Assembly: GCA_947627445.1 (NCBI GenBank)
Contig: CANQWA010000009.1
Span: 1 to 64,000 of the forward strand
Direction of reading: 5' to 3'
Length of the DNA: 64,000 nt
DNA from: an uncultured Ruminococcus sp.
GTDB lineage: Bacteria; Bacillota; Clostridia; Oscillospirales; Ruminococcaceae
Shown: piece after piece, positions 36,680 to 63,718 of the stretch
Layout of the letters: each line of letters starts with the position of its first letter
Position numbering within the stretch: position 1 is the stretch's first letter
The notes under the pieces: generated by a model
What the model saw: only the letters and a program-made list of their open reading frames with translations
Databases searched by the model: none
Told to the model about the DNA's origin: nothing
Program-made: the position numbers and the translations under genes

Positions 36680-36757
36680 TCAGCGGCAAAGGGTTGCCGA
36701 AAGGACGTGCGCTGAACCCTATGAGAACAAGTTCTCCGATACGGAACAGGCGCTTAC

Positions 36758-61148: not shown

Positions 61149-62258
61149 ATGACAAAGATTACCATATTTTCCGGCTTTTTGGGCGCTGGAAAAACAACCC
61201 TCATCAAAAAACTGATTGCTGAGGGTTATACCGGTGAAAAGCTGGTGTTGATCGAAAACGAATTCGGCGAGATTGGCATAGACGGTGGATTTTTACAGGA
61301 TGCCGGTGTGGAGATCACAGAGATGAATTCCGGCTGCATCTGCTGTAGTCTGGTGGGCGATTTTGGAAAGGCTCTGGCACAGGTGCTGGAGCAGTATCAT
61401 CCGGATCGCATTATCATTGAGCCTTCTGGTGTGGGCAAACTCAGCGATGTGATCCGTGCAGTACAGAATTTGCATGCATCGGATGTGGAACTGGACGGCT
61501 TTACCACAGTGGTGGATGCCAAGAAATGTAAGATGTATCAGAAAAACTTCGGCGAGTTTTTCAACAACCAGATCACCTATGCCAGCTGCCTGATCCTAAG
61601 CCATACCGCTGGGTTGGCGCAAGAAAAGCTGGATGATTGCATTCGCCGGCTGCGCACCTGCAATGATAGTGCGCCCATTGTGACAACAGATTGGGAACAA
61701 CTCACCGGTGAACAGATTGTGGAAGCAATGACCCGGAAGAATACACTGGATGATGAACTGGCACAGCTTCTGGCAGAACAGGAAGCGCATCACCATCACC
61801 ACCATCATGACCACGAACACGAGCATCACCATGATCACGACCATGAGCACGGAGAGGATTGCACCTGCGGCTGCCACGACCATGCGCATGAGCATCAACA
61901 CGATCACGACCATGCACACGGAGAGGATTGCACCTGCGGCTGTCACGACCACGACCATGACCAACATCACCATCATGCAGATGATGTATTCACCAGTTGG
62001 GGTGTGGAATCCCCTCAGACTTATACCGCAGAGGAGATCACTGCTGCACTCAAAGCGCTGAACGATGCAGATACCTACGGCATGGTGCTTCGTGCTAAAG
62101 GTATTGTACCGGCAAAGGATGGCAGCTGGATTCACTTTGACTATGTACCGGGCACGCCGGATGTACGTACCGGAAGCGCAGGCACAACCGGTCGGCTTTG
62201 CGTCATTGGGGCTGGCATTCAGGAAAAAGCACTGGCTGCGCTGTTTCGGGCGGAATAA
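61149..62258 (+). CDS. CobW/COG0523-type GTPase with internal His/Cys-rich metal-binding segment
   Basis: 'GFLGAGKTTLIKKL', 'EMNSGCICCSLVGDF', 'IIIEPSGVGKLSDV', long (H/D/E)n segment with duplicated 'HGEDCTCGCHDH'. Confidence 0.92.
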   Translation: MTKITIFSGFLGAGKTTLIKKLIAEGYTGEKLVLIENEFGEIGIDGGFLQDAGVEITEMNSGCICCSLVGDFGKALAQVLEQYHPDRIIIEPSGVGKLSDVIRAVQNLHASDVELDGFTTVVDAKKCKMYQKNFGEFFNNQITYASCLILSHTAGLAQEKLDDCIRRLRTCNDSAPIVTTDWEQLTGEQIVEAMTRKNTLDDELAQLLAEQEAHHHHHHHDHEHEHHHDHDHEHGEDCTCGCHDHAHEHQHDHDHAHGEDCTCGCHDHDHDQHHHHADDVFTSWGVESPQTYTAEEITAALKALNDADTYGMVLRAKGIVPAKDGSWIHFDYVPGTPDVRTGSAGTTGRLCVIGAGIQEKALAALFRAE

Positions 62259-62332
62259 GCAAGCTGCCAAAATATAGAATTTGTTCTCACAGAAGTCCTA
62301 TGAGAACGAATTCATAAAATCCCGGAACTGGC

Positions 62333-62466
62333 TTGACATTTTCGGAAAAATCGTGTATAATCGGATGTAGAAAGAGAGCACACCGGCAGCGGTGGTTTCC
62401 AATTCGATCAGGTCAGAAATAGCCGTCTCCAATTGTCACGCTGGGACGGTTATTTCCTTTTATGAA
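62333..62466 (+). ncRNA. Candidate small RNA or leader: consensus promoter followed by ORF-less ~100 nt ending in a hairpin
   Basis: TTGACA-17 nt-TATAAT (62333-62361); gaaatagccgtc...gacggttatttc hairpin at about 62415-62452, followed by ccttttat. Confidence 0.4.
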
Positions 62467-62634
62467 AAATGAGAACAAGTTCTAAAATCGTTGCGTTTTA
62501 TACCAATCCCCTTCATTCCGATAGATGGATCGATCGGATTTTGGAGGAGTAGTATTCCATGAGAGTTTCGTATAACAAGTTGCGACAGAATTGTCGCATC
62601 AAAACATGAGAAAAACACGAAAGGAAGATCGGTC

Positions 62635-63588
62635 ATGGCAGAAAATCAGGATATTCCGGTATATCTGTTCACAGGCTTTCTGGAGGCAGGAAAAACCAAA
62701 TTCATCCAGGAGACTCTGATGGACAAGCGGTTCAATACCGGAGAGAATACACTGCTGCTTCTCTGTGAGGAGGGCGAGGAGGAATACGATGTTTCCGTGA
62801 TGCCCAGTCCAAACATCTTTATCCGGACGCTGGAAGAACCGGAAGAGGTGAATCCGGAAAATTTGTCCAGGCTTCTGAAAGAATGCAACGCCACCAGAGT
62901 GGTGCTGGAATATAACGGCATGTGGCAGCTGGGATTATTGTTCCAAAATCTGCCGGAAAGCTGGACGGTGTATCAGGAGATGTTCTTTGTGGATTCCACC
63001 ACGTTTTTACCGTATAATGCCAACATGCGCAGCCTTGTGGTGGATAAATTGAACACCTGTGAACTGGTGATCTTCAATCGTTTTGAGAAAAGCATGGATA
63101 AGATGGAATTCCACAAGATCGTCCGGGGTGTCAGTCGACGGGCGGATATTGCCTATGAATATGCAAACGGTCAGGTAGAATATGATGATATTGAAGATCC
63201 ACTGCCTTTCGATGTGAATGCGCCGGTGATCCACCTGGCAGATACCGACTATGCGCTGTGGTATCGGGATATCATGGAAGAACCGAAGAAATATGACGGA
63301 AAGGTGATTTCTTTCCGTGGGATCGTGGCAGTAGATAAGAGCTTTCCGCCCAGGACGTTTGCGGTGGGAAGACATGTGATGACCTGCTGTGTGGATGATA
63401 TTGCCTATAGCTGTGTTGTAGCGGAATGGGATAAAGCCGGAATGTTACAGCAGCGGCAATGGATTCAGATCACGGGAAAGATCCATGTACAGAAGCACAA
63501 GCTGTATCGGGGAAAAGGTCCTGTGCTTGAGGTGCAGGATGTGATCATGACTGGTCCGCCGGAGCAGGAAATTGCAACATTTTATTAA
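62635..63588 (+). CDS. CobW-like P-loop GTPase domain fused to a DUF1980/YcgQ-like C-terminal domain
   Basis: 'YLFTGFLEAGKTKFIQ' Walker A; C-terminal 'GKVISFRGIVAVDKSFPPRTFAVGRHVMTCCVDDIAYSCVV...QWIQITGKIHV'. Confidence 0.75.
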   Translation: MAENQDIPVYLFTGFLEAGKTKFIQETLMDKRFNTGENTLLLLCEEGEEEYDVSVMPSPNIFIRTLEEPEEVNPENLSRLLKECNATRVVLEYNGMWQLGLLFQNLPESWTVYQEMFFVDSTTFLPYNANMRSLVVDKLNTCELVIFNRFEKSMDKMEFHKIVRGVSRRADIAYEYANGQVEYDDIEDPLPFDVNAPVIHLADTDYALWYRDIMEEPKKYDGKVISFRGIVAVDKSFPPRTFAVGRHVMTCCVDDIAYSCVVAEWDKAGMLQQRQWIQITGKIHVQKHKLYRGKGPVLEVQDVIMTGPPEQEIATFY

Positions 63589-63593
63589 GGCAG

Positions 63594-63718
63594 CACCGAT
63601 TGACGGGGGCAAGGCGAAAAAGCGAAAACAACCTGCTGTATGGTGCGCTTTTTCCACGCAACAATCGGCAAAATTTGCCGAAAAGACAGGTGCAATATCC
63701 GATGAGAACAAGTTCTTA
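63594..63718. mobile_element. Second copy of the MITE-like element (one end recognisable)
   Basis: Reverse complement closely matches 49582-49703; retains the ATCCGATGAGAACAAGTTCTTA terminus. Confidence 0.6.

Follow-up and report, generated by a model that had tools for sequence, protein, structure and literature searches.

COG0523 proteins of the CobW–YciC–ZNG1 type are G3E GTPases (PF02492), represented structurally by YjiA (PDB 4ixm), and as metallochaperones they are usually treated as single proteins. Within the same G3E fold, the nickel GTPases HypB and UreG homodimerise in a GTP/metal-dependent manner; Ffh and FtsY heterodimerise. YcgQ (TIGR03943/DUF1980) is a membrane protein whose C-terminal domain bears an R..M.CC..D motif. 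In Bacillus anthracis, an ArsP_1 permease gene (BAS1632) and yciC (BAS1633) carry consecutive locus tags, and the regions upstream of both are bound by Zur in EMSA (PMC6336718). Here we analyse a two-gene locus of a gut Ruminococcus, lying in the window (the whole stretch of 64,000 nucleotides that was analysed), in which a canonical CobW gene is followed by a gene whose product joins a CobW-like G domain devoid of CxCC (psi-CobW) to a YcgQ-type domain (Table 1). No description of this fusion, or of a psi-CobW subunit, was found in the open-access literature, to which the search was mostly confined.

Table 1. Features of the CobW/fusion locus, in window coordinates, with the evidence for each
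Feature	Coordinates	Strand	Evidence
psi-CobW/OB fusion protein (P0001), 317 aa	62635..63588	+	ORF, Pfam domains, 15/16 same-genus genomes, dN/dS about 0.09
G3E (CobW-type) GTPase-like domain, residues 8–180, CxCC segment deleted	62656..63174	+	PF02492; YjiA by profile and by fold
P-loop GFLEAGKT, residues 14–21	62674..62697	+	G14, G19, K20 in 69/69; T21 in 68/69
CEEGEEEY, residues 44–51, in place of canonical CobW NEFGEIGI	62764..62787	+	E45, G47 in 69/69; C44 in 65/69
G3-type ExxG motif E-Y-N-G, residues 92–95	62908..62919	+	E92, N94, G95 in 69/69
NRFE, residues 148–151, at NKxD position	63076..63087	+	N 66/69, R 65/69; fourth residue D/E 31/69
DUF1980_C domain, residues 195–310, predicted OB-fold	63217..63564	+	PF21537 E 1.4e-21; AlphaFold2 pLDDT 94.4; OB-fold neighbours
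R-x-x-M-x-C-C-x-x-D, residues 246–255, candidate metal/thiol site	63370..63399	+	R, M, C, C, D in 69/69 fusions
Canonical CobW/COG0523 GTPase partner (P0002), 369 aa	61149..62258	+	PF02492 E 3.6e-41; CobW_C E 2.4e-6
Partner CxCC metal motif C-I-C-C	61335..61346	+	in 56/56 aligned partner rows
Partner His-rich putative metal-binding stretch	61788..61977	+	His density in sequence
Perfect sigma-70-type promoter in the intergenic gap	62333..62361	+	TTGACA-17-TATAAT, 12/12; in insert unseen in same-genus relatives

Architecture and motifs of the fusion protein

The ORF of the fusion gene starts with an ATG preceded by a ribosome-binding site (GAAAGGAAG). Pfam assigns residues 8–164 of the product to cobW (PF02492, E = 1.3e-4), with a score of 22.0 bits that only just exceeds the cut-off of 20.7. 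Used as a single sequence, the fusion had no match in the PDB; YjiA was matched (E = 1.9e-6) only when the query was the alignment of its 69 homologues. AlphaFold2 gives a confident model with two domains (mean pLDDT 91.7, pTM 0.73), the first of which is related by Foldseek to YjiA, HypB and UreG and the second to OB-folds (aspartyl-tRNA-synthetase anticodon domains, OBodies). The CobW_C domain that Pfam recognises in the neighbouring protein is absent. The DUF1980 homology of the C-terminus, on which the initial annotation had staked its reading, holds (PF21537, E = 1.4e-21, residues 195–310). At the level of sequence, the joining of cobW and DUF1980_C parts in one protein is thus confirmed.

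The fusion had been described as a degenerate CobW that retains Walker A but has lost the CxCC motif, has VVLEYNGMW in place of the IIEPSGVG-type motif and shows no evident NKxD. Walker A is indeed kept (GFLEAGKT, residues 14–21), and the CxCC segment, present as GCICC in the 61149 gene, is deleted in all 35 fusions that were aligned with 56 canonical proteins. The replacement of IIEPSGVG is likewise borne out, but it does not entail the loss of G3, as ExxG is kept (E92 and G95 in 69/69); moreover, N148-R149-F-E sits at the very place of NKxD (N in 66 and R in 65 of the 69 fusion homologues whose alignment provides the motif counts of Table 1). The word degenerate therefore fits the missing CxCC, whereas catalytic degeneracy is unsupported, the nucleotide-binding motifs being invariant. 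From these motifs we infer that the fusion binds a nucleotide, which may not be GTP, since the fourth residue of NKxD, the Asp responsible for guanine specificity, is D/E in only 31 of the 69 sequences.

The fusion resembles COG0523 proteins in its G3E fold, its P-loop and the replacement of DxxG by ExxG, and it is found next to a true member of the family. It differs from them in having NR for NK and a DUF1980_C OB domain instead of CobW_C and, because both the CxCC segment and CobW_C are absent, it should not be classed with the COG0523 metallochaperones. HypB and UreG have the fold of its G domain in common, but they are homodimers with their own metal ligands and no OB domain.

The prediction that the fusion carries a YcgQ-type domain containing a Cys-Cys pair proved correct. 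In this domain, K223, R246, M249, C251, C252, D255 and W276 show little or no variation across the 69 sequences. Adding three membrane YcgQ proteins to the alignment leaves R, C, C and D in the 246–255 motif invariant and M conserved in at least 90%. Modelled alone (pLDDT 94.4), the domain again has mainly OB-type Foldseek neighbours, none of them close. The likeness to YcgQ stops at this soluble C-terminal domain: the transmembrane part is missing, with no Pfam match to PF09323 and a count of zero hydrophobic segments for the fusion ORF. The fusion further differs from YcgQ in being joined to a G domain and, with no transmembrane domain, a TIGR03943 score of 79.7 bits (below the cut-off of 88.8) and no neighbouring permease of the ArsP_1 (YcgR) kind, it is not to be filed as YcgQ/TIGR03943. 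In membrane YcgQ proteins, hydrophobicity and charge counts usually give three hydrophobic segments, with Lys and Arg most abundant in the loop before the last one and scarce after it; we lean towards an extracytoplasmic position of the OB domain in these proteins. In the fusion, the same domain is necessarily cytoplasmic, which implies a change of setting and is in tension with the explanation that we favour below. We also considered the OB domain as a nucleic-acid binder, in view of its tRNA-synthetase and SSB-type fold neighbours; this is disfavoured because the domain is membrane-attached in YcgQ and because its conserved residues are Cys, Asp and Arg.

Homologues of the fusion are found in 15 of 16 same-genus genomes (68–82% identity, one being truncated by a contig end) and in 44 of the 149 genomes that made up the family sample, a few of them as partial matches. 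The fusion is widespread in Clostridia, where full-length members fall to 28% identity, and rare outside the class (in a phylum sample of 399 genomes, two from other classes). Most of the relatives that have names belong to Ruminococcus or elsewhere in the Oscillospiraceae, with R. albus 8 and R. flavefaciens among them. Comparison with the closest relative gives a dN of 0.12 and a dS of 1.3–1.4, that is, a dN/dS of about 0.09, equal in both halves of the protein; judged from these rates, the fusion is under strong purifying selection. A paralogue in decay, or a chance fusion that has no function, could account for the loss of CxCC and CobW_C, yet such a protein would hardly have full-length homologues of such low identity across Clostridia, and the dN/dS of both halves together with the invariant motifs leads us to reject this explanation, to which we give practically no credence.

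Adjacency to the canonical CobW gene and a proposed metal-delivery pair

A CxCC-containing CobW gene adjoins the fusion gene in all 35 wide loci, the fusion gene usually lying 3–55 bp downstream; the gene order is reversed in L132, and the pairing in L111, L126 and L132 was settled by tblastn. Among the 80 named loci, pairing was found in 75 of the 75 testable ones, 60 by ORF calling and 15 by tblastn (including two cut by a contig end), while the remaining five start too near a contig end. A strong CobW match is present in 43 of the 43 genomes with the fusion versus six of 19 without it (Fisher p = 3e-9), a p-value that, like the one given below, overstates the evidence because the sampled species are related; the 19 fusion-less genomes were picked from hit lists, not at random. 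Thus, the proposed partnership between the fusion and the neighbouring CobW agrees with the adjacency of the two genes in every testable locus (35 wide, 75 named), and their co-occurrence, without which the initial annotation would have abandoned its reading, is complete in these 43 genomes.

The partner proteins have Ser-His/Arg-Thr at the NKxD place, with Ser as the first residue in 53 of 56 aligned partners, whereas Asn occupies this position in 35 of 35 fusions in the same alignment. The fusion therefore has the Asn without CxCC and its partner has CxCC with Ser, which amounts to a reciprocal motif loss: the aligned motifs show that the partner has lost the guanine-recognition Asn and the fusion the metal cysteines. 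The histidine content of the partners varies with the type of locus, the densest 40-residue stretch containing 10–26 His in 36 fusion-linked CobWs versus 1–12 in 20 permease-linked ones described below (Mann-Whitney p = 1e-9, uncorrected for relatedness), so that the His-rich stretch goes mainly with the permease-less form. Note that NKxD is missing from the canonical CobW partners in both fusion-linked and permease-linked loci, with P-loop and CxCC intact.

The explanation that we favour, with a probability of roughly 0.55, is that two GTPases form a soluble metal-delivery pair in the cytoplasm, with the fusion as the obligate second subunit. In such a pair, the mode of action of the fusion would most plausibly be that of either half in a G3E dimer, and the two proteins perhaps form a physical heterodimer. 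The His-rich CobW would use its His stretch and CxCC to collect the metal, which is most likely Zn2+; the CobW and psi-CobW subunits would then pair as a nucleotide-dependent heterodimer, for which the HypB and UreG homodimers serve as a model and to which the Ffh/FtsY heterodimer may be compared; finally, nucleotide hydrolysis would cause the metal to be passed to a client docked on the OB domain, or through this domain (Cys251/Cys252/Asp255). A more specific version, which we put forward tentatively, is a heterodimeric metallochaperone that splits the work between a metal-Cys subunit without guanine motif and a nucleotide-motif subunit with an OB Cys-Cys transfer domain, a membrane permease system having thereby turned soluble. 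If two conserved genes form a unit in which the motif losses are reciprocal, metal hand-over by COG0523 proteins would become directly accessible to tests on a defined heterodimer.

The loss of CxCC with retention of the nucleotide motifs, the separate Cys-Cys domain and the obligate adjacency to CobW would also suit a regulatory subunit, of the sensor or GTPase-activating kind, which would bind nucleotide and, on its OB domain, metal, and would switch the partner CobW on or off without transferring metal. However, the Asn-Arg and ExxG motifs suit a nucleotide-sharing dimer equally well, no allosteric-type domain was recognised, and the sequence does not separate this reading from the metal-delivery pair; we regard a purely regulatory role as rather unlikely. 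Alternatively, the OB domain might dock one apo-enzyme, which would be the only protein metallated by the pair, with the psi-CobW half as a mere attachment to CobW. COG0523 proteins with one main client do exist (YciC/YciA, as cited in PMC6336718, and MigC-MurD, PMC12208494), and OB-folds are common binding modules. Nevertheless, no client gene is conserved next to the pair in the loci examined, and a P-loop that does not vary points to more than tethering, so that such an adaptor or insertase seems to us improbable.

Permease-containing relatives and the question of zinc

In other Clostridia, the pieces of the fusion occur in loci that also encode a permease. Three-gene loci consist of CobW, a psi-CobW–ArsP_1 fusion of about 530 aa (psi-CobW domain, E = 1.6e-17; ArsP_1 permease, E = 1.9e-68) and a membrane YcgQ (DUF1980 plus DUF1980_C). 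In the four-gene loci L087–L089, CobW, a psi-CobW of about 210 aa, the permease and YcgQ are all separate (the last gene is not called in L090), and two genomes (G306 and G373) each have a four-gene locus plus a fusion pair. Since the same pieces are encoded separately in these organisms, the fusion unites two subunits of a membrane system but leaves out its membrane parts. The permease-containing forms (L073–L092) share with the fusion pair a CxCC-less G domain with EYNG or EWNG beside CobW and YcgQ; they differ from it by their membrane permease and membrane YcgQ, by the weak or absent His-rich stretch of their partner CobW and by their frequent proximity to znuABC/fur. In a tree of the psi domains, the fusions are monophyletic (100/99) and group with part of the permease-fused proteins (99/87), showing that the fusion shares ancestry with the psi-CobW subunit joined to the ArsP_1 permease elsewhere. 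We infer that the permease form is ancestral to the soluble fusion; the branches of the tree are long and its rooting is arbitrary.

A psi-CobW fused to, or beside, an ArsP_1 permease and accompanied by a membrane YcgQ is seen in L073–L086, L087–L090, L091 and L092, frequently with ZnuABC and a regulator of the Fur type as neighbours; 10 of 20 permease-type loci have a ZnuA and/or Fur-type cluster in their vicinity. These loci probably represent a COG0523-coupled metal transport system, in which the same G-domain pair would gate or load the permease/YcgQ complex. The association of YcgQ-like genes, together with ArsP_1, with COG0523 GTPases near zinc genes, which had been presented as established, is thus found in other Clostridia and has a parallel in B. 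anthracis (PMC6336718). The parallel lies in the consecutive tags of a permease gene and a COG0523 gene; it differs from the Ruminococcus locus in that a permease is present, and the fusion type is absent from the description in PMC6336718. DUF1980/YcgQ and psi-CobW seem to belong to a single COG0523-dependent metal system, and the domain shuffling between separate psi-CobW, psi-CobW–permease and psi-CobW–OB forms provides a functional lead for these uncharacterised families.

The full model of the initial annotation, in which the fusion would be the partner subunit of a metal permease under zinc regulation, draws on the psi-CobW–ArsP_1 fusions of these relatives, often beside ZnuABC/Fur, and on the Zur-bound ArsP_1 permease gene numbered next to yciC in B. 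anthracis (PMC6336718). It conflicts with the gene content of the fusion loci: no ArsP_1 permease lies within 6 kb of the fusion in 115 loci (35 wide and 80 named), 26 of the 43 fusion genomes, including the Ruminococcus source genome, have none anywhere, and ZnuA or ZnuB is near only three of the 115 loci. No Zur box was found either. Far from the pair, the znuA gene of the source genome (L234, G000:C2:80577-81440) carries a Fur/Zur-like inverted repeat, ATAATGAATATGATAATCATT, right at its -10. No box of this type was seen upstream of the fusion/CobW pair, and the 9-1-9 Bacillus Zur box is not enriched upstream of 56 CobW genes (11.9 versus 11.85 in shuffles), a divergent box being possible. 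Hence, neither search gave a sign of the supposed zinc regulation. For the source genome, the permease-partner model is largely refuted, unless another permease family has been recruited, and we hold it to be very unlikely. What stands of the original interpretation is a CxCC-less partner subunit with a Cys-Cys domain; catalytic degeneracy, the permease link and zinc regulation are the parts that fell. Zinc is still the likely metal of the pair, in view of the neighbourhoods of the permease forms, COG0523 biology and BAS1632/BAS1633.

Spacer, promoter and repeats at the window locus

The gap between the CobW and fusion genes is 376 bp in the source genome versus 3–12 bp in six other same-genus loci, an enlargement peculiar to the source genome among the same-genus loci examined. 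As the insert has its own promoter (Table 1), the two genes are no longer simply co-transcribed, and the fusion gene is possibly transcribed from this newly acquired promoter. An Rfam search of the region gave nothing credible.

An element within the extra DNA, at 62276–62483, has relatives among the small multi-copy elements of the genus, which bear a resemblance to type I toxin-antitoxin loci (copies L218–L226; L224 corresponds to G000:C2:100283-100416). The element comprises perfect -35 and -10 boxes and a predicted RNA of about 110 nt with two conserved hairpins, the second of which is terminator-like, with three pairs displaying compensatory changes. Several other copies include a convergent hydrophobic ORF of 33–37 aa, e.g. 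MNSYITWSDLIQFGIFFVGYTSLLYMIFHNKKK; in the window copy, this small ORF is lost and the RNA side alone is left. Among known families, only Hol_Tox comes up, at an E-value of 0.06, and there is no Rfam match; the element seems to be a type I toxin-antitoxin-like locus of a kind not described before.

The insert ends in a palindrome, TGAGAACAAGTTCT, with 74 exact copies in 2.58 Mb versus none for the reversed control. In the window, it is located at 36722, 49584, 49734, 52823, 62470 and 63703. Several inverted pairs of this palindrome are exactly 149 bp apart, which suggests that it is probably the end of a MITE-like repeat of about 163 bp; one copy of this repeat appears to lie directly 3' of the fusion stop codon (63589–63716).
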